Source of the DNA: Aureimonas fodinaquatilis
GTDB taxonomy: Bacteria > Pseudomonadota > Alphaproteobacteria > Rhizobiales > Rhizobiaceae
NCBI RefSeq assembly: GCF_008369445.1
Contig: NZ_VTWH01000003.1
Span: 248,001 to 312,000 of the forward strand
Direction: 5' to 3'
DNA: 64,000 nt
Below the pieces are notes generated by a model, which was given only the letters and a program-made list of their open reading frames with translations, had not been told where the DNA came from and did not search any database. Shown piece by piece: positions 4,000 through 14,586 of the stretch (position 1 is the first letter of the stretch; every line of letters begins with the position of its first letter). The position numbers and the translations under genes are program-made.

Positions 4000-5550
4000 T
4001 CAGAGCATTGCCCGCAGCGTTTCCAACTTGTCTGCCTCACTGGCCGGTTTGTCCCAGCGTATGCGTGATATGCGCGGAAACCGCATGGCCAGGCCGGAGC
4101 GATGGCGGAGCGAAGCGTTCAACCCTTCAAATGCCACCTCGATGACAAGTTTGGGCGCCAGTTGACGCACAGGTCCAAAGCGCTGGGTTGTGTTCTTGCG
4201 CACAAAGCGGTCCAGTTCGCGCAGCTCTTCATCGGTGAAACCGAAATAGGCTTTGCCCACTGGTACAAGGTCTTCACCCTCCCAGAGACCAAAGGTGAAG
4301 TCGCTGTAAAAGCCGGAGCGCTTGCCGTGGCCGCTTTGGGCATAAAGCAACACGGCATCAATGATTTTAGGGTCTCGCTTCCACTTGAACCACGGGCCAC
4401 GCGGACGCCCGGCCAGATAGGGCGAGTCCCGCCGTTTGATCATCACGCCCTCGATGACCGGCGCATGGGGTGCGGCGCGCAGCCGTGCCAGATCATCCCA
4501 GGTGGTGAATGGCAAAAGCGGTGAAAGGTCGATCTGCGGGCTGTCGAAGTTCAGTTCTCCCAGTATTTCGCGCCTTTTGGCCAGTGGCAACGGCCGCAGG
4601 TCCTCTCCCTGCCAGAGCAAAACGTCGTAAAGCCGCAGCCCGGCAGGGTGGCTTTGCAGCATTGCACGGCTGACCGCTTTGCGGCCAAGCCGTTTTTGTA
4701 AGTCGGCAAAGGGTGCGACATCTTCCATTCGGCGGATCAGCAATTCGCCATCCACTGCGCCGTCAAAGTTCATGGCGTCGATAATGTCGGGAAAGGCCGC
4801 ACCAATCTCTTCGCCGGTGCGCGAATACAACCGCCGGAGACCGCCTTCGGAAACCGCCTGAACGCGGATGCCATCCCACTTCCATTCGGCAAAATGTTCC
4901 TCAGGGTCCAAACCCGCCAGTTCTTCCGGTGTGATGGGGGTGGAAAGCATGACCGGGCGGAAAGGCGCCTGCGCAGGGGCGGGCGGTTCCCCACCGGCCA
5001 GCCACTCGAACATTGGCAGAAAAGGCGGTTCCAACCCATGCCAGATTTCCTCAATCTCTTCCACGCTGCGGCAGCCTGTCTGCGCCAGCGCAACCCGCGC
5101 CAGCCTGGCAGAAACGCCGATGCGCAAATTGCCGGTGGCGAGCTTTAGAAAAGCCAGTCGCTCAGGCGGTGTCAGGCTGTCCAAAAGGTCGGCTACCAAA
5201 GCGGGAAGCGCCATTTTGCCCGTCTCACGCAGGAGAGTTACGGCCTGCGCCACGCTGACGTCTGTGCGTTGGGCAGGTTCTGTTGGCCAGATCAGCGAAA
5301 TTGTTTCTGCCAGATCTCCCACGTAATCGTAGGACAAGGCAAACAGCCGCTCATCAACCCGCTCGGCTGCCAGGCGTTTCAACAAGGATGGCGAAACCTG
5401 CCGCAAATTCAAAGTGCCGGTCAGCGCGGCCAAAGCCCAGCCGCGATCCGGATCGGGGGTATCGCGCAGATAGTGCGAAAGGATTGTCAGCTTGGCATTT
5501 CGCCCGGCTGTAAAAGCCAGCCGCTCCAGAAGTCGCGCAAAGGCTTTCAT
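4000..5550 (-). CDS. ATP-dependent DNA ligase, DNA-damage-response type
   Basis: A 516-residue ligase matching the family annotated as cisplatin damage response ATP-dependent DNA ligase (TIGR04120 type). An N-terminal helical DNA-binding domain (residues 1-190) is followed by the adenylation domain. The nucleotidyl-acceptor lysine is K224 in motif I (EWKWDGIRVQ), followed by SRTGEE, VDGELLI and KWKRDP (motifs III-V), then the OB domain with KVGKAYFGFTDEE-like residues and an RFPRISRIRWDK end. It seals nicked DNA. Its start overlaps the exonuclease stop by ATGA, a pairing conserved in this ligase-exonuclease system. It is the last gene of the repair operon starting at 9271. Confidence 0.93.
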   Translation of the reverse strand: MKAFARLLERLAFTAGRNAKLTILSHYLRDTPDPDRGWALAALTGTLNLRQVSPSLLKRLAAERVDERLFALSYDYVGDLAETISLIWPTEPAQRTDVSVAQAVTLLRETGKMALPALVADLLDSLTPPERLAFLKLATGNLRIGVSARLARVALAQTGCRSVEEIEEIWHGLEPPFLPMFEWLAGGEPPAPAQAPFRPVMLSTPITPEELAGLDPEEHFAEWKWDGIRVQAVSEGGLRRLYSRTGEEIGAAFPDIIDAMNFDGAVDGELLIRRMEDVAPFADLQKRLGRKAVSRAMLQSHPAGLRLYDVLLWQGEDLRPLPLAKRREILGELNFDSPQIDLSPLLPFTTWDDLARLRAAPHAPVIEGVMIKRRDSPYLAGRPRGPWFKWKRDPKIIDAVLLYAQSGHGKRSGFYSDFTFGLWEGEDLVPVGKAYFGFTDEELRELDRFVRKNTTQRFGPVRQLAPKLVIEVAFEGLNASLRHRSGLAMRFPRISRIRWDKPASEADKLETLRAML

Positions 5551-6566
5551 TCCGGCTCGTCCTCATAACCAACCAGACGCAATGGGCGAGCAGCTATGCC
5601 TGCCAGTTCGCACCATCGCAGCAGGCCATCTTCAGCGCCATGGGTGATCCACACTTCCTGCGGGGCAAGTTCGGTGATTGTCGAAGTCAATTGCGGCCAG
5701 TCCACATGGTCGCTGATAACCAGCGGCAGTTCCACCCCGCGTTGCCGCGCACGTGCCCGCACGGTCATCCAGCTGGAGGCATAGGAAAGAACCGGGTCGC
5801 GGAATCGCTGCACCCATGGTGAGGCAAAGGCAGAGGGGGGCGCAAGAATGAGCCTGGCGTCTCCCGGATCGCTTGCACTGACCAGCTCGCCCAAATCGAT
5901 GCCCTGCTCAATGTGGTAATCACACAAGCGCTTCAGGGCACCGTGTATGGCAATGGGCCCGGTATGTCCGGCAGCACGGGCCAAGGCTATGACCCTTTGT
6001 GCTTTGCCCAGCGCATAGGCACCGACAAGATGAGGGCGATCAGGAAATTCCGCCATGCTGGCCAGCAGACGCGAGGCCTCTCCCATCGGGTCCGGGTGGC
6101 GGAAAACCGGCAAGCCAAAGGTTGCCTCAGTGATGAACACATCACACGGAACCGGTTCCCAAGGTGCGCAAACCGGGTTTGGCGTGCGGCAATAATCACC
6201 TGAAACCAGAATACGGGGGCCGTTGTCGGGAGTTACAAGAATCTGCGCGGAGCCGAGCACGTGTCCCGCTGGGTAAAACTCGACCGTGACGCCGCCAATC
6301 CGAACTTTACCTTCGGCAACCTGCCTGGCTGCTGTAAAATCCTCGCCATAGCGAATTGCCATGATTTCGAGCGTTTGCCGGGTCGCAAGCACAGCTCCAT
6401 GGCCAGCCCGCGCATGATCGGCATGACCGTGGGTGATCAATGCCCGCGCAACTGGCACCAAAGGGTCGATGAAAAAATCCCCCGGCGCGCAATAAAGGCC
6501 GGCATCTGTCGGGTAGATGATGTCCTGTGCCTGCAAGCGCGCCAAACTCCAATGCTCCGTTTCCAT
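5547..6566 (-). CDS. Ligase-associated MBL-fold DNA exonuclease
   Basis: A 339-residue metallo-beta-lactamase/beta-CASP protein of the ligase-associated DNA damage response exonuclease family (TIGR04122 type), related to SNM1 and CPSF-73 nucleases. The metal motif HGHADHA is at residues 46-52, a second metal segment is AGHVLGSAQILV, and the beta-CASP part carries VGAYALGKAQRVI and VISDHVDWPQL with a late H-containing EVWITHG segment. The family probably trims damaged DNA ends before ligation. It ends in an ATGA overlap with the ligase gene and begins 36 bases after the UdgX-fusion gene, so all are likely on one transcript. Confidence 0.9.
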   Translation of the reverse strand: METEHWSLARLQAQDIIYPTDAGLYCAPGDFFIDPLVPVARALITHGHADHARAGHGAVLATRQTLEIMAIRYGEDFTAARQVAEGKVRIGGVTVEFYPAGHVLGSAQILVTPDNGPRILVSGDYCRTPNPVCAPWEPVPCDVFITEATFGLPVFRHPDPMGEASRLLASMAEFPDRPHLVGAYALGKAQRVIALARAAGHTGPIAIHGALKRLCDYHIEQGIDLGELVSASDPGDARLILAPPSAFASPWVQRFRDPVLSYASSWMTVRARARQRGVELPLVISDHVDWPQLTSTITELAPQEVWITHGAEDGLLRWCELAGIAARPLRLVGYEDEPE

Positions 6567-6602
6567 AAACCACCGCAGCGGTGAACCGGTTCCCCGGCAT
6601 GG

Positions 6603-8042
6603 CTAAGCCGAGGAAATTCTGCTTGCCTTCCAAGCCGTTCCAATGTCTTCAGTCAGTTCTGCCAGCGCTTTGGCGCGCTCGGCAGGATCTTTCACACGCA
6701 ATATGTAGGATGGGTGCCACGAAATCAGCACCGAACCGCCATGCATGGTGGATTCAACCTGCCCGCGGCGGCCGGCCATCGGTGCGGAATTGCCGGTGAG
6801 GGCATAAGCGGCTGAGGCGCCGAGTGCCAGCACCATGCGTGGTTGAATGAAGGCCAGTTCCAAACCCAGCCACCAGCGGCAATGCTGAATTTCCTGCCGG
6901 TTGGGGCTTTGATGCAGCCGCAATTTGCCGCGTGGGGTGAATTTGAAATGTTTCACCGCATTTGTCAGCCAGGTCTGCTCCGGGTCCACGCCTGCTTCTC
7001 GCGCCGCAGCGCGCAGAATTTGACCGGCAGGACCGACAAACGGGCGACCTTCCAGATCTTCCCGGTCACCCGGTTGTTCACCCACCATCATCAGGCTGGC
7101 TGTTGGCGGCCCTTCACCCCAAACTGTTTGCGTGGCTGGCTCGCACAGCCCGCAACGGCGGCATTGCAATGCGCCCTCACATGCCTCTTCCAAAGTCGCG
7201 GGCAGTTCAGGCGATTGTGGCATGGTTGCGCGGTAGCGGGTGGAAACGGCCGCAGCACCGGGGCGCGGCGCTGTTGCTGCGGCTTCCTGCATCCGCTCCA
7301 CTCGGGCTTGCGCATCGCGCAACATATCCGGGATCAATTGGGTTTCCGGAAGGTTTTTCCAATATTTTTTCGGCATTTCAGAGCGCATGGCATCCAGCTT
7401 GATGCGGGCCGGATTGAAGATATTGGCGAAATAGGTTGCCCAAAGTGTTTCCGATGCATCCTCGGGAAGATCCGGCCGCACCCCGCCAGGGCAAAAGCTT
7501 AGCCGCCCATTATCAAACCGCGCGGTCAGGCGCGGCGTGGCGATCATCCAGTCCATGTCTGCAAAGCGTTTCACAAAGAAGGAACTGCCCGGGATCAGCG
7601 TGGCATGTTCAGGCTCAAACCACGCAGCAAAACGGCGGCGGCCTTCCGCGGGCAATTCGCGAAAACGCACGAAGGCGTGCATTTTGTGAATGTCGCGGCG
7701 AACCGATTTCGCCATCAGGTTCAGCCTGTGGCCGAGCGGGTCAGCATGTGAAAGCGGATCGCCCTGACGCCGGTCAAGTTGCCAGAGTGCCTGATACAGA
7801 AGGCTCAGCCGCTCTGGCGCTGAATGCCAGATCACTGAACCGGCAAGTTTAATGAAAGCTGGCGGCACGTGGGCCTGATGCAGACCGGGTTCATCCGGCA
7901 AGGATTGTGCTTCAAACAGGCTGGCGCTGTTTCCAGTCCAGTCAATGTCAACCGGCGCGATGCGGTGGCCGATGGCGGTTCTTGCCGCAGCGCGCCAAGC
8001 TTCAAACATGCCAATATCGGGCAATGTTACGGAGTAAGTCAC
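6603..8042 (-). CDS. DUF4130-UdgX fusion: uracil-DNA glycosylase superfamily protein
   Basis: A 479-residue two-domain protein. Residues 1-250 are the DUF4130 domain usually found with the partner radical SAM protein. Residues 285-479 are a family-4-like uracil-DNA glycosylase domain with iron-sulfur cysteines C294, C297 and C388 (C300 lies nearby), the GEQPGD catalytic motif at 321-326, FVGPAG at 335-340 and the late HPSY motif at 443-446. The UdgX signature loop is present as KLRLH (373-377), keeping the His that in known UdgX forms a covalent bond to uracil-containing DNA. I start at the GTG at 8042, which overlaps the upstream stop (GTGA); longer starts run into the radical SAM gene. Confidence 0.92.
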   Translation of the reverse strand: MTYSVTLPDIGMFEAWRAAARTAIGHRIAPVDIDWTGNSASLFEAQSLPDEPGLHQAHVPPAFIKLAGSVIWHSAPERLSLLYQALWQLDRRQGDPLSHADPLGHRLNLMAKSVRRDIHKMHAFVRFRELPAEGRRRFAAWFEPEHATLIPGSSFFVKRFADMDWMIATPRLTARFDNGRLSFCPGGVRPDLPEDASETLWATYFANIFNPARIKLDAMRSEMPKKYWKNLPETQLIPDMLRDAQARVERMQEAAATAPRPGAAAVSTRYRATMPQSPELPATLEEACEGALQCRRCGLCEPATQTVWGEGPPTASLMMVGEQPGDREDLEGRPFVGPAGQILRAAAREAGVDPEQTWLTNAVKHFKFTPRGKLRLHQSPNRQEIQHCRWWLGLELAFIQPRMVLALGASAAYALTGNSAPMAGRRGQVESTMHGGSVLISWHPSYILRVKDPAERAKALAELTEDIGTAWKASRISSA

Positions 8043-9271
8043 AACAAGGACAATTGTTGAGGCTGGGGCGCAAAGCGCGCTCGCAGTTTGAGACTGTCGG
8101 TCAGCCCCCGTGGCGACCAACCGGGCAACGAAATGAAGCTGCGCGTTTTCTTCATCGAAACACCCAGCCGTGCCAGATCTTCATATCGCAGGGATCGGTT
8201 GCGACGTGCCGCCAGAATACGGTCGACAGTGCGAGTGCCAAAGCCGGGAACGCGCAGCAGCATATCGCGGCTGGCGCGGTTGACGTCCAACGGAAACAGG
8301 CCGCGATTTTGCAAAGCCCAAGCCAGTTTAGGGTCAAGGTCCAGATCGAGATGTCCGGCATTGGTGCCAGTTGCAATCTCGTCAGTACTGAAACCGTAAA
8401 ACCGCAAAAGCCAGTCCGCCTGATAGAGGCGGTGTTCACGCACAAGCGGGGGTTGTATCAGCGGCAGCGCACTGGAAGCATCGGGAATGGGCGAAAAGGC
8501 GGAATAGTATACCCGCCGCAGCTTGTAGCCATTGTACAATCGGACAGAGCTTTTCAGGATCGTCAGATCATCGGTGCCATCGGCACCGATGATCATCTGG
8601 GTGCTTTGGCCGGCGGGGGCAAAACGGCGGGCAGCGCGTCCCGTGTGCGTCTTTTCCTTGGCTGCCTCGCCCTCCAGTCGCACTTGCGCCATGGCAGTGC
8701 GAATGGTTTCCGGCCGTTTCTCCGGCGCAAATTTGCGCACGCTTTCATCCTGCGGCAATTCCACGTTGATGGACAGGCGGTCGGCATAGAGTCCCGCTTC
8801 GCGGATCAGGTCCGGGCTGGCATCGGGAATGGTCTTGAGGTGAATATAGCCCTTGAAGCCGTGTTCTTCACGCAGGGTGCGGGCAATGCGCACCATATCC
8901 GCCATGGTCTGGTCGGGAGAGCGGATAATGCCGGACGACAGAAACAAGCCTTCAATGTAGTTGCGCCGGTAAAATTCCAGCGTCAGAGTAACCACTTCCT
9001 CGACAGAAAAGCGTGCGCGCTCCACATTGGAAGACACGCGGTTGATGCAATATGCGCAGTCAAAGATGCAGAAATTTGTCATCAGAATCTTCAGGAGGCT
9101 GATACAGCGCCCATCAGGAGTATAGGCATGACAAATGCCGCTTCCACCTGATGACCCTATACCACCCTTTGTCGAATCCCGCTTTTCGCCGCCGGATGAT
9201 GCACACGAAGCATCATATTTCGCAGCATCCGAAAGAATGGCGAGCTTGTCTTGGAGGGTCATCTTTGTCAT
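8039..9271 (-). CDS. Radical SAM protein of the UdgX/DUF4130 DNA-repair group
   Basis: A 410-residue member of the putative DNA modification/repair radical SAM family (TIGR03916 type). The 4Fe-4S cluster motif CIFDCAYC gives cysteines C68, C72 and C75. The conserved N-terminus KLAILSDAAKYDASCASSGG and C-terminal helix-hairpin-helix elements (MLLRVPGFGTRTVDRIL) point to DNA contact. Its exact reaction is not established. It is the first gene of the repair operon and ends in a GTGA overlap with the UdgX fusion. The promoter is so close that the transcript start falls almost on the ATG; the Met codon at 9262 is an alternative start. Confidence 0.92.
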   Translation of the reverse strand: MTKMTLQDKLAILSDAAKYDASCASSGGEKRDSTKGGIGSSGGSGICHAYTPDGRCISLLKILMTNFCIFDCAYCINRVSSNVERARFSVEEVVTLTLEFYRRNYIEGLFLSSGIIRSPDQTMADMVRIARTLREEHGFKGYIHLKTIPDASPDLIREAGLYADRLSINVELPQDESVRKFAPEKRPETIRTAMAQVRLEGEAAKEKTHTGRAARRFAPAGQSTQMIIGADGTDDLTILKSSVRLYNGYKLRRVYYSAFSPIPDASSALPLIQPPLVREHRLYQADWLLRFYGFSTDEIATGTNAGHLDLDLDPKLAWALQNRGLFPLDVNRASRDMLLRVPGFGTRTVDRILAARRNRSLRYEDLARLGVSMKKTRSFISLPGWSPRGLTDSLKLRARFAPQPQQLSLL

Positions 9272-9278
9272 GACAGAA

Positions 9279-9307
9279 ACTATAAGTGTTCACGAAATGT
9301 TCGTCAA
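9279..9307 (-). promoter_or_regulatory. SOS-controlled promoter of the repair operon (LexA box in spacer)
   Basis: On the minus strand a -35 TTGACG (9307-9302) and a -10 TATAGT (9284-9279) are separated by exactly 17 bases. On the plus strand 9288-9302 reads GTTCACGAAATGTTC, a perfect GTTC-N7-GTTC direct repeat, the LexA box known for alphaproteobacteria. The box overlaps the -35 and fills the spacer, an ideal position for repression. The expected transcript start is about 9272, next to the ATG at 9271. Confidence 0.85.
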
Positions 9308-9332
9308 TTCGCACGCAATCAGAGGGTATGAT

Positions 9333-9725
9333 ATGGACATGGTAATTGGCGGCTGCCTGTGTGGTGACATCAGGTTCAAACTTGAGGGAAAGCCTTATCG
9401 CGTCGGCATTTGCCATTGCATGGATTGCCGAAAGCATCATGGCGCACCTTTCGCGGCTGCGGCAATTTTTCCCATTGAGGCAGTGTCGGTAGAGGGTGAA
9501 ACGCGAAACGTTGCAGGGCGGCATTTTTGCCCGCAATGCGGCTCTTCCTTGTTTGGTGTCACGGGTGATGAGGTGGAAATCAGCCTTGGTTCGCTGGATG
9601 CGCCAGACCAGTTTGTGCCAACCTATGAATTATGGACAGTGCGCCGTGAGAGCTGGCTGAAGCCATTTGCTGGCATGAAGCAATATGAACGCGACCGGGA
9701 CACATCTTCCCGCTCGGAAGTGTAA
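9333..9725 (+). CDS. GFA-family (glutathione-dependent formaldehyde-activating-like) zinc protein
   Basis: A 130-residue single-domain GFA/CENP-V family protein. The zinc cysteines are in CLCGD near the start, CHCMDCRKHHGAPF in the middle, and FCPQCGSSLF later. The family binds zinc through these Cys pairs; only a few members have a proven link to glutathione and formaldehyde, so the reaction is left open. The ATG at 9333 has an AGAGGG ribosome site six bases upstream; longer starts would run back through the promoter region and the divergent radical SAM gene. It faces the SOS promoter across about 60 bases, so LexA could also affect it. Confidence 0.88.
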   Translation: MDMVIGGCLCGDIRFKLEGKPYRVGICHCMDCRKHHGAPFAAAAIFPIEAVSVEGETRNVAGRHFCPQCGSSLFGVTGDEVEISLGSLDAPDQFVPTYELWTVRRESWLKPFAGMKQYERDRDTSSRSEV

Positions 9726-9765
9726 TTCGGCAGCCCACTATCCATTTCAAAGAGGACAATGAGCA

Positions 9766-10089
9766 ATGGCGCCATCACAGTTGGAAACTGCGCGCAAGCT
9801 GGCGGAAGAGGAGAGACCGCGCCGGGTTCGCGAGGGCAAGGACGCCATTTTGCCAGACCAGAACAGTATTGCTGTTCTGAAAACGCTGCGCCAGCAGATT
9901 GAGGCTATTGAAAAATGGTTGGGTGCGGCATGCACGGAAAGCGTGCCAATCCGGGCCTGTGCACTGATGGAAGCCGCCAACGCCGCGCAGTCGCTGCGCT
10001 TTGAGAGTGAAGAGCTGGTGCGCCGTATTGAGGTGTTTCGCAATGAAACAGACCCTTGGAGATTACCAGTCTCGCAAGTCCAGCACTAG
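9766..10089 (+). CDS. Hypothetical protein, helical, 107 residues
   Basis: I do not recognise this family. The product is charged and predicted helical throughout, with a Lys/Arg/Glu-rich N-terminal third (KLAEEERPRRVREGKDAI), a middle helix LKTLRQQIEAIEKWLG and a C-terminal helix AAQSLRFESEELVRRIEVF. No signal peptide or membrane segment is visible. An AGAGGA-type ribosome site lies about 9-14 bases upstream of the ATG. It sits 40 bases after the GFA gene on the same strand and faces another unknown gene. The reading frame is clean, but without homologues its reality is only likely. Confidence 0.5.
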   Translation: MAPSQLETARKLAEEERPRRVREGKDAILPDQNSIAVLKTLRQQIEAIEKWLGAACTESVPIRACALMEAANAAQSLRFESEELVRRIEVFRNETDPWRLPVSQVQH

Positions 10090-10148
10090 CGAGCAAGCAT
10101 CTGGATGTCCCAGGCTTCGCTGATTGGCATCAGGAAAATGACCATGCG

Positions 10149-10415
10149 TTAAGTCCGTTTTGGGCCAGACTTTGAAATACGAGCCATCTCTTCCGCAACA
10201 TTCATCCTGGGATATGTTTTTTGAATTTCATGTGCCCATGAGAATACGAGATTTGCGGCTTGATGTTCGGGATCGATTCCGTAGTCGATTTGGGCGATCT
10301 GCTTCGGGGTCATGTTCAGAACGTAGTAGAGAAAGCGGAACTGCTCGGCCCAGGCGTCAAAATCGCCATTGGTAAAAAGGTCCGGACGCGGAAATATCCC
10401 ATCAGTCTCATGCAT
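10149..10415 (-). CDS. Hypothetical protein, 88 residues
   Basis: Unrecognised small soluble protein. The start at 10415 is chosen because an AGGGAGG ribosome site lies about eight bases upstream; the ATG at 10421 would be too close to it, and longer versions have an unlikely Arg-rich leader. The sequence has aromatic-rich stretches (FDAWAEQFRFLYYVLNM) and a helix-turn-like TPKQIAQIDYGIDPEHQ segment, ending in a basic tail (SKSGPKRT). It lies alone between the unknown 9766 gene and the terminator at 10544-10572. No function is proposed. Confidence 0.6.
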   Translation of the reverse strand: MHETDGIFPRPDLFTNGDFDAWAEQFRFLYYVLNMTPKQIAQIDYGIDPEHQAANLVFSWAHEIQKTYPRMNVAEEMARISKSGPKRT

Positions 10416-10543
10416 GGTCATGACCTCCCTGCGCGGTCTTGCAGTTGTTTGTCCCATCAATCGGCCGGATGCAAATCTGCAAAAACGCGGCGCTCTGCCA
10501 TGCATCAGTACCACATATACATCAACAAAGCCTCGCACAGAAA

Positions 10544-10572
10544 AGCCCCCGGTTCGACTGCAACCGGGGGCT
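10544..10572 (-). terminator. Rho-independent terminator of the lysine-dehydrogenase-like gene
   Basis: A perfect 11-bp stem (AGCCCCCGGTT at 10544-10554 with AACCGGGGGCT at 10562-10572) around a 7-base loop. Read on the minus strand it is followed directly by TTTTC. It lies 30 bases past the stop of the leftward gene ending at 10603. Confidence 0.9.
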
Positions 10573-10602
10573 GATAGCTGGGCACTGGCGCATACGCCGC
10601 TG

Positions 10603-11706
10603 TCAGCCGGCTTGCTTCAGGCGCACGGCATCCGGGTTGTAGGCGTAGCCGAAGCGATTGTTCAGGAAGTCCGTCAATGCCACTTCTTCCTGACGCACAA
10701 AGCCCTTTTGCGGCAATTTGCCTTCCGCCAGCATATCCAGCACCGTGGTAATGCCTGCCGCCGTGGTGATCTGGATTGCGCTCATGCGCTTGCCCGCAAC
10801 AACGCCTGCATAGACTTTGTTCGCATAGGTTTCCTGCATGTAACGGCCATCTTTCCAGCCGCACACAGTTACGAATACGACAACCACATCCTGCATGGTT
10901 GCAGGCAAAGCGTTCTCGAACAGGTCTTTCAGCACATCTCGGCGGTTTTTCAGGTTCAGATCGTTCAACAGCGCCTTGATAATAGCCTGATGGCCCGGAT
11001 AGCGAATTGTCCGGTAGTTCATGGTGCGAACCCGGCCCTCAAGCGACTTGGCCAGAGTGCCCAGACCACCCGATGTGTTGAACGCTTCGTAAGTCACGCC
11101 ATCCAGCGAAAACTCCTCACGCTCCTCCATCGCCGGCACCGTGACCAGCTTGCCCTCAACCACGGCCTCACATGGCTCAATATACTCGTTGATCAGGCCA
11201 TCCGTGCTCCAGGTCAAATTGTAGTTCAACGCATTGGATGGATATTGCGGCAGTGCGCCAACCCGCATTCTGACGCTGTCCAGCGTGTCGAACCGCTTGG
11301 CAAGATCATTGGCCACAATGGAAATGAAGCCCGGCGCAAGACCGCACTGAGGAATGAACGCCGTTTGCGCACCTTCTGCCAGTTGCTCGACCATTTTGGT
11401 GGTTGCGACATCTTCTGTCAGGTCGAGATAGTGCACACCGGACTCGAGTGCGGCTTTGGCCACATTGCCTGTCAGATGAAATGGTGCGGCCGAAAGAACC
11501 GCAAACTTTCCGCGCAGGGTGGCAACCAAGGCTGCGTGGTCCGCGATGTCCACAGTTGCAACGGAAATCGCCGGATGCTGATCGACTTTTGCCAACTGGG
11601 CCGGATCACGATCGGTAACCACAACCTTATAGTCGCCCGTGTCGGCCAGCATAAGGGCAATTGCGCCACCGATTTTACCGGCGCCGATTACAACAATGTC
11701 TTTCAT
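10603..11706 (-). CDS. Saccharopine dehydrogenase-family protein, probable L-lysine 6-dehydrogenase
   Basis: A 367-residue oxidoreductase starting with a Rossmann motif (DIVVIGAGKIGGAIALML, residues 2-19). The rest follows the saccharopine dehydrogenase/lysine 6-dehydrogenase family, including LTEDVATTKMVEQLA and FIPQCGLAPGFISIVAND. Lysine 6-dehydrogenases oxidise the epsilon amino group of lysine with NAD(P). The start at 11706 has an AGGAAA ribosome site. The divergent Lrp/AsnC regulator 114 bases away supports an amino-acid substrate, but a related diaminoacid is equally possible. A strong terminator follows, so it is monocistronic. Confidence 0.8.
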   Translation of the reverse strand: MKDIVVIGAGKIGGAIALMLADTGDYKVVVTDRDPAQLAKVDQHPAISVATVDIADHAALVATLRGKFAVLSAAPFHLTGNVAKAALESGVHYLDLTEDVATTKMVEQLAEGAQTAFIPQCGLAPGFISIVANDLAKRFDTLDSVRMRVGALPQYPSNALNYNLTWSTDGLINEYIEPCEAVVEGKLVTVPAMEEREEFSLDGVTYEAFNTSGGLGTLAKSLEGRVRTMNYRTIRYPGHQAIIKALLNDLNLKNRRDVLKDLFENALPATMQDVVVVFVTVCGWKDGRYMQETYANKVYAGVVAGKRMSAIQITTAAGITTVLDMLAEGKLPQKGFVRQEEVALTDFLNNRFGYAYNPDAVRLKQAG

Positions 11707-11773
11707 CTTGATTTCCTGCCATAAGGGGTCGTAGGCAGACAATTCTACGTTCGTGCTGGTCAGATTGTAGCGG

Positions 11774-11789
11774 CATAATTAACATTATG
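11774..11789. promoter_or_regulatory. Candidate Lrp/AsnC operator between divergent genes
   Basis: A perfect inverted repeat CATAAT-TAAC-ATTATG lies in the 114-base space between the lysine-dehydrogenase-like gene and the lrp-type regulator. The position and AT-rich symmetry suit an AsnC/Lrp binding site. Binding is inferred. Confidence 0.5.
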
Positions 11790-11820
11790 ATGAATTTGTT
11801 TGTACGAAAGGACAAGATAA

Positions 11821-12270
11821 TTGGGCAACTCGCAAAGCATGGCACTTTCCGAAAAAGACCGCGAACTCCTGGCGCTGCTTTCCGAAAATGCGCGAATACC
11901 GGTGGCGGTTCTGGCCAAAAAGCTCGGTCTTTCGCGAACCACCGTTCAGGCGCGGCTGGAGCGGCTGGAGCGTGAAAAAATTATTGCCGGCTACACGGTG
12001 CGGCTGTCGGCTGAATATGTGTCGAGCCTCGTCCGCGCCCATATTCTGATCACCATCGCCCCTAAAGCTCTGGCGCAGGTGACAGCCTCCCTGGACAAGA
12101 TCAAGGCTGTTGTTGAACTGCATTCTGTCAGCGGCAACTTTGATCTGATTGCAATCATAGTTGCGCCGTCGATTGCGCAACTGGATCAGTTGATCGACGA
12201 AATCGGGATGATCGAAGGCGTTGAGCGAACCTTGTCCTCAATCATCCTTTCCACCCGCATTGCAAGGTGA
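11821..12270 (+). CDS. Lrp/AsnC family transcriptional regulator
   Basis: A 149-residue regulator with an N-terminal winged helix-turn-helix (LSENARIPVAVLAKKLGLSRTTVQARLERLE, about residues 20-50) and a C-terminal RAM ligand-binding domain (residues 65-145, VELHSVSGNFDLIAIIVAP). Such proteins form octamers and sense amino acids. I keep the TTG at 11821 as start because an AAGGA ribosome site lies eight bases before it; the ATG at 11839 lacks one. It is divergent from the lysine-dehydrogenase-like gene and probably controls it in response to the substrate. Confidence 0.88.
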   Translation: MGNSQSMALSEKDRELLALLSENARIPVAVLAKKLGLSRTTVQARLERLEREKIIAGYTVRLSAEYVSSLVRAHILITIAPKALAQVTASLDKIKAVVELHSVSGNFDLIAIIVAPSIAQLDQLIDEIGMIEGVERTLSSIILSTRIAR

Positions 12271-12282
12271 TGTGGCGATTGG

Positions 12283-12516
12283 TCAGGCGCGGTCTACCAG
12301 CTTCGTTGCGCCTTCCTCTTCCGCGCAGTGGGCGCAGCAGTAAATCACCTCGTCCTGTTCAACGCCGTGGCCGATGATGCGGCAGTTGCAGCAAGGGCAG
12401 GTCGGTGCAAGTTTTTGTATGGCGCATTCGAAGCTGTCGAAAGTATAAGTTTTTTCCGCCATTTTGACTTCAAAGGATTTGTCGTAAATATTTCCACACT
12501 GGTCGCAGCGGGCCAT
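12283..12516 (-). CDS. Cysteine-rich metal-binding protein, prokaryotic-metallothionein-like
   Basis: A 77-residue protein with ten cysteines. The N-terminal part has a CDQC pair and a TYTFDSFECAIQ segment resembling TRASH/YHS-type metal-sensing folds. The C-terminal part (CPCCNCRIIGHGV...YCCAHCA) resembles bacterial metallothioneins such as SmtA. The start at 12516 is fixed by an AGGAGA ribosome site. A role in binding zinc or a similar soft metal is inferred from the cysteines. It lies 31 bases after the MgtC-like gene on the same strand, so the two may be transcribed together. Confidence 0.75.
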   Translation of the reverse strand: MARCDQCGNIYDKSFEVKMAEKTYTFDSFECAIQKLAPTCPCCNCRIIGHGVEQDEVIYCCAHCAEEEGATKLVDRA

Positions 12517-12547
12517 GGATTTTCTCCTGTAACGCTCGTTTAGCTTG

Positions 12548-13126
12548 TCAAATCCCGGTTGTTGAATTTTGTTCCGAGCGGTCTGGTGTCTGGCCTTTCT
12601 TGCGATATCCATCCTTGTCGGTCACCGCCCGATTGGGCGCATTTGATCGACCCTCGACCTCCGGGACATCAGCGCTGTCATCTCCGCGCTTGAAATCGGG
12701 CAGATATTTTTCCAGCACCCGAATGCCGGTTATCAGCACAAGGCCCAGAGCCAATGCCGTGAAAAACAGAACGAACTGGCCTGCACCGGAGGTAATGCCA
12801 AGCGCTGCGGCCAGCCAGAGATTGGCGGCCGAGGTCAGGTTGTGCACATCGCCCCGCGCGAAAAATATCGCACCCGCGGCAATAAAGCCGATGGCCTGTG
12901 CCAGACCCTGCACGACCCGCAATGGGTCTATACTGTTATTGGGGTTTTGCGCCGAAAGTGTTTCATACAGCATCAAAGCGGAAACCGTGATGGCGGCGGA
13001 ACTGAGCGCTACTATACCATGGGTTCGAATGCCCGCGGAAATGCCGCGTAATTCACGGTCCAGACCCAGCAACAGCCCGCCTGCGACGGCCAGTGACAAG
13101 CGCATAATGACATCGGTTTCCAGCAT
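12548..13126 (-). CDS. MgtC/SapB family membrane protein
   Basis: A 192-residue inner-membrane protein. The N-terminal hydrophobic half carries the MgtC signature: LAVAGGLLLGLDRELRGISAGIRTHGIVAL, then GLAQAIGFIAAGAIFF, and LWLAAALGITSGAGQF. The C-terminal 40 residues are polar (KRGDDSADVPEVEGR...) and likely cytosolic. MgtC proteins are linked to growth at low magnesium and to ATP synthase control in pathogens; the role here is unknown. The ATG at 13126 has a GGGGAG ribosome site. Neighbours are a Cys-rich metal-binding protein downstream and an SLC13 carrier upstream. Confidence 0.85.
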   Translation of the reverse strand: MLETDVIMRLSLAVAGGLLLGLDRELRGISAGIRTHGIVALSSAAITVSALMLYETLSAQNPNNSIDPLRVVQGLAQAIGFIAAGAIFFARGDVHNLTSAANLWLAAALGITSGAGQFVLFFTALALGLVLITGIRVLEKYLPDFKRGDDSADVPEVEGRSNAPNRAVTDKDGYRKKGQTPDRSEQNSTTGI

Positions 13127-13160
13127 GCGAGCGCTCCCCTTTTTGCACAAAACGGCAGCG

Positions 13161-13178
13161 CCGGACCTTAGGTTCCGG
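13161..13178 (-). repeat. Near-perfect palindrome, possible weak terminator
   Basis: CCGGACCTTAGGTTCCGG at 13161-13178 is almost self-complementary (one mismatch and one G-T pair). It lies just past the stop of the leftward SLC13-type gene. On the minus strand a short T run (GTTTTG) follows only about eight bases later, so terminator function is uncertain. Confidence 0.4.
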
Positions 13179-13188
13179 GGTCAGAAGG

Positions 13189-14586
13189 CTAAATCCAGCC
13201 GAGGAACTTCCACCAGAAGTAATCCAGTGGCAGCAGCACCAGTATGGTGACAGCGGCCAGAGGCATAATCACACGCACAAGGTTGCCCAGCCGCTCTCCG
13301 GCCAGTTGCATGGCCACAATCAGCGGTGCGACTTGATACGGAAAAATGATGGTCGAAAAGCCGACAACCTGAGTCATCAGCACCGCTTGCAGATCGAAGC
13401 CGGTCTGGGCTGCAAGATCGGGCGCCATCGGCGTCAGCACCGCCGGCACGCCCGGCATTGTGGCAAACACCCCGATAATCGTGGTCATCAGTGACAGCGA
13501 CAGGAAATTCAGCATGTCTGCGCCGTGGCTCAATTGCAGAATGCGCGTCATGGCAGAGCCAAGCAGACTGCCAAGGCCGGTTGCGTTGACCAATGTGCCA
13601 ACGGCCAGTGCGCCAACCACAAACAGCAGCATGCCAAAATCAACCGAGGTTTTGAAGTTGGCCGGCGAGACAATGCCAATTCCCGGCAGCAGCAAAATGC
13701 AGGCTGTGGCCAGCCCTATCCACGCCGCATTGATGCCATGCACGCTGTCTGTCATCCAGAATGCCAACGTGATCAGCAAAATGATGGCCACGCGAAACTG
13801 CGCAGCGCTGGTTGTGCCCGTGTCTGCGCCGGATGCAGCGGTTTTGGCCACCGGGTCAATGGTTGCAGGAAATAGCCGCACCACCAGCATGACGGTGATG
13901 ATGGCCTTGAGAATGCCCAGAACCGGATAATGCAGCGCGAGATAGTCCATATAGCCGAAATGCACGCCGTGTATGGTTTCTGACGCGCCGACAAGCACCA
14001 TGTTGGGAATGTTGGAGGGCAGAATTGCAAAGCTTGGCATGTTGCAGGCAATCGTCAGAACAACCGCTATGCCCGCACGCCCGTTCGACCCTAGGGCAAA
14101 GCCGATGCGGTCGGCCAGCGCCATGCCGATGGGCACGAGCACCACGGCCCGCCCGATGGAAGATGGCATGAGAAAGCCAAGCAACATGGCAGCCAGCATC
14201 AGTCCGCCAATCAGCCGCGTGTAGCTGCTGGTCAGCATAGGGTCCAGAACAGCGGCCAGCCGGTTGCCCAGGCCCGAATTGCCAATGGCCGAGCCGATAA
14301 CAAAGCCGGAAACAATCAACCAGATGGCGGCAGAGGTGAAGCCGGAGAACACCAGATCCGGCGCGGCCAGACCAAAAATCAGGGTGATGGTGAAGAAGAT
14401 GAGGCTGGCCAGATAGCTTGGCACGACGCTGGTGGCCCACAGTGCCAGAGTTACCAGAATGATGCCCAGAACATGGGTCTGGTTGGGTGTCATGGATGCC
14501 GGCTGAGTGGCAATCAGCAACAGCGCAAGGCACATGACCATCGCGACAATGAGCTGCTTTGCAGGCAGTCGGGAAATCATTGTCAT
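13189..14586 (-). CDS. SLC13/DASS-type anion permease
   Basis: A 465-residue polytopic membrane protein with about 11-12 hydrophobic segments and the duplicated layout of the divalent anion:sodium symporter family. Visible family features are the SGFVIGSAIGNSGLGNRLA region and the two re-entrant substrate-loop areas MPSSIGRAVVLVPIG and MPGVPAVLTPMAPDL. Likely substrates are dicarboxylates, sulfate or related anions. The ATG at 14586 has GAGGGT six bases upstream. It diverges from the AraC regulator at 14674 with an 87-base control region, so AraC control is probable. Confidence 0.85.
   Translation of the reverse strand: MTMISRLPAKQLIVAMVMCLALLLIATQPASMTPNQTHVLGIILVTLALWATSVVPSYLASLIFFTITLIFGLAAPDLVFSGFTSAAIWLIVSGFVIGSAIGNSGLGNRLAAVLDPMLTSSYTRLIGGLMLAAMLLGFLMPSSIGRAVVLVPIGMALADRIGFALGSNGRAGIAVVLTIACNMPSFAILPSNIPNMVLVGASETIHGVHFGYMDYLALHYPVLGILKAIITVMLVVRLFPATIDPVAKTAASGADTGTTSAAQFRVAIILLITLAFWMTDSVHGINAAWIGLATACILLLPGIGIVSPANFKTSVDFGMLLFVVGALAVGTLVNATGLGSLLGSAMTRILQLSHGADMLNFLSLSLMTTIIGVFATMPGVPAVLTPMAPDLAAQTGFDLQAVLMTQVVGFSTIIFPYQVAPLIVAMQLAGERLGNLVRVIMPLAAVTILVLLPLDYFWWKFLGWI

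Follow-up and report, generated by a model that had tools for sequence, protein, structure and literature searches.

A putative LexA operator welded to the promoter of a radical SAM/UdgX repair operon in Aureimonas fodinaquatilis

On the minus strand of the 64,000-nucleotide stretch of Aureimonas fodinaquatilis DNA that we analysed (hereafter, the window), four genes lie in the order radical SAM, DUF4130-UdgX fusion, exonuclease, and ligase, behind a promoter that carries a candidate SOS box. The features concerned are the following:

9333..9725, plus strand: GFA-family (PF04828) gene, divergent, its start lying 31 bases from the box
9302..9307, minus strand: -35 hexamer TTGACG, read directly; its final base also serves as base 1 of the box on the minus strand
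9288..9302: GTTC-N7-GTTC (GTTCACGAAATGTTC; on the minus strand GAACATTTCGTGAAC), putative alphaproteobacterial LexA (SOS) box, from direct reading and conservation
9279..9284, minus strand: -10 hexamer TATAGT, 7 bases upstream of the ATG
9271..9273, minus strand: predicted transcription start, at or adjoining the start codon, from the position of the -10
8039..9271, minus strand: radical SAM protein TIGR03916 (rSAM_link_UDG), 410 aa, from profile score and CX3CX2C
6603..8120, minus strand: TIGR03915 (DUF4130) domain fused to UdgX (TIGR03914), from profile scores and motifs
5547..6566, minus strand: ligase-associated exonuclease TIGR04122, from a profile match; begins 36 bases past the UdgX stop
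4000..5550, minus strand: ATP-dependent DNA ligase TIGR04120, from a profile match; overlaps the exonuclease gene by 4 bases

The radical SAM protein scored 586.5 bits against TIGR03916, above the curated cut-off of 343.5, contains CX3CX2C at C68/C72/C75, and is encoded beside a UdgX/DUF4130 gene, which features together place it in that family. Its C-terminus gave a weak helix-hairpin-helix match; we take COG4277 to be this same TIGR03916 family, that weak match being the one piece of backing for the equation. In the AlphaFold2 model (mean pLDDT 70.7, with residues 19–83 below 50) the reaction of the protein is not readable because the top Foldseek matches, with a query TM of at most 0.38 among the 50 matches listed, are to radical SAM folds of a general kind (LIAS, biotin synthase, viperin). 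We also observed that three cysteines outside CX3CX2C (C23, C47, and C56), together with H48, do not vary among 32 proteins, some of them from Bacillota and Bacteroidota; these residues possibly constitute a second metal or Fe-S site. The UdgX moiety, at 288.8 bits against TIGR03914 (cut-off 189.95), retains GEQPG, the KLRLH loop with the cross-linking histidine—aligning to KRRIH—and HPS, as expected of a UdgX (motif names as in PMC10359453). Going by the two translations, the true start of the fusion is probably the GTG at 8042, which codon would overlap, as GTGA, the stop codon of the radical SAM gene.

The original prediction had described a minus-strand TTGACG and TATAGT with an exact 17-base spacer and a GTTC-N7-GTTC at 9288–9302 between them. 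The hexamers, their spacing, and the box are all read directly in the sequence, and the box lies at that position; it is not, however, wholly between the hexamers, base 9302 being also the final G of TTGACG, so that TTGAC and GAAC are welded together. The TTGACG-17-TATAGT pair, which precedes the radical SAM ATG at 9271, agrees with the consensus at 10 of 12 positions and obtained the top score among the 7 sigma-70-like sites found in 4000–14000. The candidate operator overlaps the radical SAM promoter, as in an alphaproteobacterial LexA-type promoter. The divergent GFA-family gene may be a second target sharing the operator, though a GFA-family gene beside the radical SAM gene was not conserved in the loci compared.

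As a bare count the motif is uninformative: the window contains 1 match against 1.29 expected, at least one match occurring in 74 of 100 shuffles, and the whole genome contains 115 matches versus 98 for the reversed word. The significance of the box lies in its placement within the promoter and in its conservation in relatives. We examined 120 other alphaproteobacterial loci, comprising the best 80 of 592 relatives plus 40 further alphaproteobacteria (28 + 12 loci), these latter having been taken, along with 28 genomes of other classes, from a second set in which 84 of 398 genomes were above the cut-off. One of the loci, L033, whose frame is broken (235 aa), was excluded from the tree, its start being placed by hand for the counts of upstream boxes. 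A strict box was present near the radical SAM start (–200 to +30) in 118 of the 120 loci, which are not phylogenetically independent, and in 78 of the best 80 of the 592 relatives it lay no more than about 70 bases from that start; the two misses, L040 and L046, each retain 7 of the 8 box bases. The scan of relatives' promoters that had been put forward as a check on conservation was accordingly positive. By comparison, a strict box occurred at only 1 of the 317 flanking open reading frames of 250 aa or more from these loci, other spacings in at most 4 of 120, and the reversed letters in 4 of 120. That the box is a chance match within an ordinary promoter is compatible with a motif frequency near that of the controls in window and genome, but the contrast between 118/120 and 1/317, together with the rarity of the other spacings, leaves that explanation with next to no credibility.

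The genome encodes its own LexA (184.5 bits), whose gene has an alpha-type box in the promoter, and boxes are also found ahead of the divergent genes uvrA and ssb, of an ImuA-like gene (at 61.7 bits it falls short of the NCBIfam cut-off, 150), of dnaE (about 190 bases upstream), and of a PA0069-family radical SAM gene; a cognate LexA is thus accompanied by operators of one type at lexA itself and at other SOS genes. The recA gene has no strict box, there being only two 7-of-8 sites. Among the 115 genomic sites, 100 were listed, and we read 36 of these, whose spacers contain at least 4 A or T; most of those 36 fall within, or at a distance from, genes for which no SOS role is evident. By a spacer model derived from the relatives only, the window box ranked 2nd of the 100 listed sites, behind that of the ImuA-like gene and ahead of PA0069 (3rd), a prophage-like site (4th), uvrA/ssb (5th), dnaE (6th), and lexA (21st). 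Two of these sites deserve a separate description: at the PA0069-family radical SAM gene (L192, G000:C1:1053760-1055575) an SOS-type box is located 45 bases before the start, and the 4th-ranked box (L198, G000:C2:225165-226980) has an Xre/RstR-like repressor gene in its surroundings, which are perhaps a prophage under SOS control.

Outside the Alphaproteobacteria the word at the radical SAM gene is a different one. At the 28 loci that represent other classes of the phylum—genomes that we call gamma/beta-type from their boxes—the alpha box was found in none, while CTGT-N8-ACAG was found in 19 and a one-mismatch form in 5 more (24/28); this latter word occurred in 0 of the 120 alphaproteobacterial loci and in 1 of 59 flanking open reading frames of the 28. 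In parallel, lexA in G310 and G294 is preceded by CTGT-N8-ACAG and in the alphaproteobacteria G035 and G250 by the alpha word. The operator of the radical SAM gene thus changes along with the word of LexA, a correspondence for which it is difficult to find an explanation other than selection for LexA control; LexA control would appear, from these comparisons, to have been retained while the DNA word changed between classes.

The remaining four of the 28 loci (G302, G094, G393, and G360) lack CTGT-N8-ACAG also when one mismatch is allowed. In G302, G094, and G393, TTAGTAGTAATACTACTAA stands before lexA and is absent from the radical SAM upstream sequence shown, the place of the LexA box there being occupied by the inverted repeat GGTCTCATCCAATGAGACC. 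The loci L116, L117, and L118 carry GGTCTCATCCAATGAGACC upstream of the radical SAM gene, and the lexA box of these genomes is TTAGTA...TACTAA. The radical SAM upstream region of G360 contains TGAACGAACGTACA, by eye at best a one-base variant of the TGTACATTCGTACA of the lexA-like gene. In a 29th other-class genome, G074, outside the 28, no full-length LexA, UdgX neighbour, or box was found in the stretch shown. Other phyla were represented by nine loci of a plasmid collection (Bacillota, Bacteroidota, and Fusobacteriota), where the partner gene, if annotated, was a TIGR03915 without UDG. A clear box was present in only two of the nine, as GAAC-N4-GTTC in Lachnospira eligens, where it spans the start, and as two copies of that word in Pusillibacter; the Parabacteroides locus has the short 6-base Bacteroidetes word GGA-N5-TCC, and no box was found at the other six. 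A search of viral contigs with the Subdoligranulum radical SAM protein gave no relative.

A conserved GAAC-N7-GAAC might, alternatively, be an element of the core promoter or of a leaderless start instead of a LexA operator, for a -10-like hexamer is found inside the box in 44 of the 120 alphaproteobacterial loci, often 6 bases before the ATG. The box occurs, nevertheless, in both orientations (104 GAAC and 17 GTTC hits) and at positions from –97 to –16, which variability indicates that it is not merely a conserved promoter element; in the window it lies outside the -10, other classes carry their own LexA word instead, and the same box stands ahead of lexA, uvrA/ssb, and the ImuA-like gene. 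We consequently judge such an element to be highly improbable, though a shade less so than a chance match. The interpretation of LexA control advanced in the original prediction is, by the same comparisons, well sustained: a strict box in 118 of 120 alphaproteobacterial loci, the switch to CTGT-N8-ACAG in 19 of 28 others, and a boxed lexA in the genome itself all point in that direction.

Among 121 promoters, including that of the window, 42 had a hexamer pair of at least 8/12, and in 33 of these the -10 was 3–10 bases from the start codon, versus a mean of 2.9 and a largest value of 7 in the shuffle control. Shine-Dalgarno-like 4-mers, in turn, preceded 16 of 120 radical SAM starts versus 104 of 318 flanking open reading frames. 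We read these figures as leaderless transcription, in which LexA would cover the -10 or, in promoters of the window's type, the -35 and the spacer. A transcription start farther upstream, with the box inside a 5' leader, would be consistent with the 52 of 120 alphaproteobacterial loci in which a clear -10 could not be assigned, but is unlikely in view of both the 33 of 121 close-set -10 hexamers and the scarcity of Shine-Dalgarno-like 4-mers.

The welded form of the promoter has a distribution of its own. In a tree of 92 rows, the window protein belongs to a 10-row set (100/99) comprising Rhodobacterales, two Acetobacteraceae, and an Ensifer plasmid, and is separate from seven proteins of the family to which its host belongs; the word TTGA(C/G)GAAC-N7-GAAC, in which -35 and box are joined, was present in 10 of 10 of that set and in 0 of 114 other alphaproteobacterial loci. 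The gene and the promoter therefore travelled together, and the tree suggests that both belong to a horizontally spread subclade, the gene having come from outside the family of the host.

The exonuclease and the ligase, judging from the relatives seen, did not arrive with the radical SAM gene. In L016 and in Phaeobacter inhibens L184 the exonuclease-ligase pair lies upstream on the opposite strand, with no box upstream of the pair, and at 30 other alphaproteobacterial exonuclease loci, the best 30 of 53 over the cut-off, a ligase match follows in 29, with a strict box upstream in 3. Such pairs thus appear to be usually unboxed; here the pair stands behind the boxed one, in which position it would come under LexA control if read-through occurs. 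The same tandem order—radical SAM, UdgX fusion, exonuclease, and ligase—recurs behind a boxed promoter (GTTCCTGATATGTTC) in L153 (G214:C4:439642-448829), the only such case among the relatives seen, a few of whose contigs end too soon to tell. The claim that the entire four-gene operon is SOS-controlled must therefore be divided: the radical SAM and UdgX genes are boxed as claimed, but for the exonuclease and ligase, which have a box of their own at only 3 of 30 loci elsewhere, control would depend on read-through. That LexA governs the radical SAM and UdgX genes only, perhaps along with the GFA gene 31 bases from the box, leaving the exonuclease and ligase to a non-SOS expression as in most relatives, would accord with the separate and unboxed state of that pair in most alphaproteobacterial genomes (3/30 boxed; none at L016 and L184). 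So restricted a regulon seems rather unlikely, if less so than a leader-bearing mRNA, since the gap between UdgX and exonuclease measures only 36 bases, the exonuclease and ligase overlap by 4, the scan of 4000–14000 listed no minus-strand promoter-like site within that gap, and L153 has the same order behind a boxed promoter.

On the basis of these sequence comparisons, then, the site is very probably a LexA operator that represses the four-gene operon and is freed after DNA damage. In undamaged cells LexA bound at 9288–9302 would cover the -35 and the spacer and keep the radical SAM, UdgX-fusion, exonuclease, and ligase genes off; upon DNA damage, the RecA-stimulated self-cleavage of LexA would free the promoter, and an mRNA that is probably leaderless would be made, starting at or adjoining the ATG. 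Judging from the respective families, the radical SAM protein and the DUF4130 domain would act on a damaged or misincorporated base, UdgX would excise uracil and then cap the abasic site covalently, and the exonuclease and ligase would, in this genome, trim and seal.

Regulation of this kind has precedents. According to PMC8565304, a repair system based on uracil-DNA glycosylase has been reported to be under SOS regulation in Verrucomicrobia and Alphaproteobacteria; the paper names GTTC-N7-GTTC—the box of the window—for the latter class and predicts SOS control of a COG1573-COG4277 operon in Bacteroidetes. PMC3765255 links DUF4130, SplB-like radical SAM, and UDG to SOS neighbourhoods. The COG1573-COG4277 operon (UDG plus a helix-hairpin-helix protein, the alphaproteobacterial instance being Caulobacter) resembles that of the window in the type of regulator and in being a two-gene repair operon with a UDG (PMC8565304); unlike it, the window has an exonuclease and a ligase following, a welded -35/box, and a gene from outside the host family. 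The SOS-controlled radical SAM genes of the SplB/PA0069 type are likewise DNA-repair genes with a LexA box, but belong to NF033668 instead of TIGR03916 and lack the linkage to UdgX. The UdgX of Mycobacterium smegmatis (PDB 6ajo, 6io9, and others) aligns with residues 308–496, the UDG domain of the window protein, which retains the loop of the cross-linking histidine; the latter protein differs in the fusion to DUF4130 and in its location downstream of a radical SAM gene that carries the SOS-type box. The main text of a paper on the LexA of Dinoroseobacter shibae (PMC6473078) does not mention radical SAM, uracil, ligase, or exonuclease; our literature search for UdgX, radical SAM, and SOS together found nothing, and an earlier report of a gamma/beta-type box at the radical SAM gene may exist. 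The regulatory link that had been foreseen for this radical SAM family is thus supported by conservation, but is not new in kind, given PMC8565304. Because the SOS membership of the gene pair is already published, the site counts as well supported but not as surprising, and our additions to the known regulation are the class-wide switch of operator, the promoter that is welded and probably leaderless, and the capture of an exonuclease-ligase pair.

We tentatively propose, as a reading that we hold at somewhat below even confidence, that the radical SAM/DUF4130(-UdgX) pair is a standing member of the SOS response throughout the Pseudomonadota, its operator being rewritten with each change in the LexA word, and that here a horizontally spread copy, its promoter welded and leaderless, has captured the exonuclease-ligase pair to form a single damage-inducible line that would recognise or cap, trim, and seal a specific base lesion. 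SOS control across classes with different LexA words would imply a substrate that arises either from acute DNA damage or from synthesis during the SOS response, which consideration would narrow the assays to phenotypes of loss in SOS-proficient cells exposed to mitomycin C, UV, or cross-linkers. The window promoter, for its part, would furnish a ready regulated promoter for testing leaderless SOS expression.
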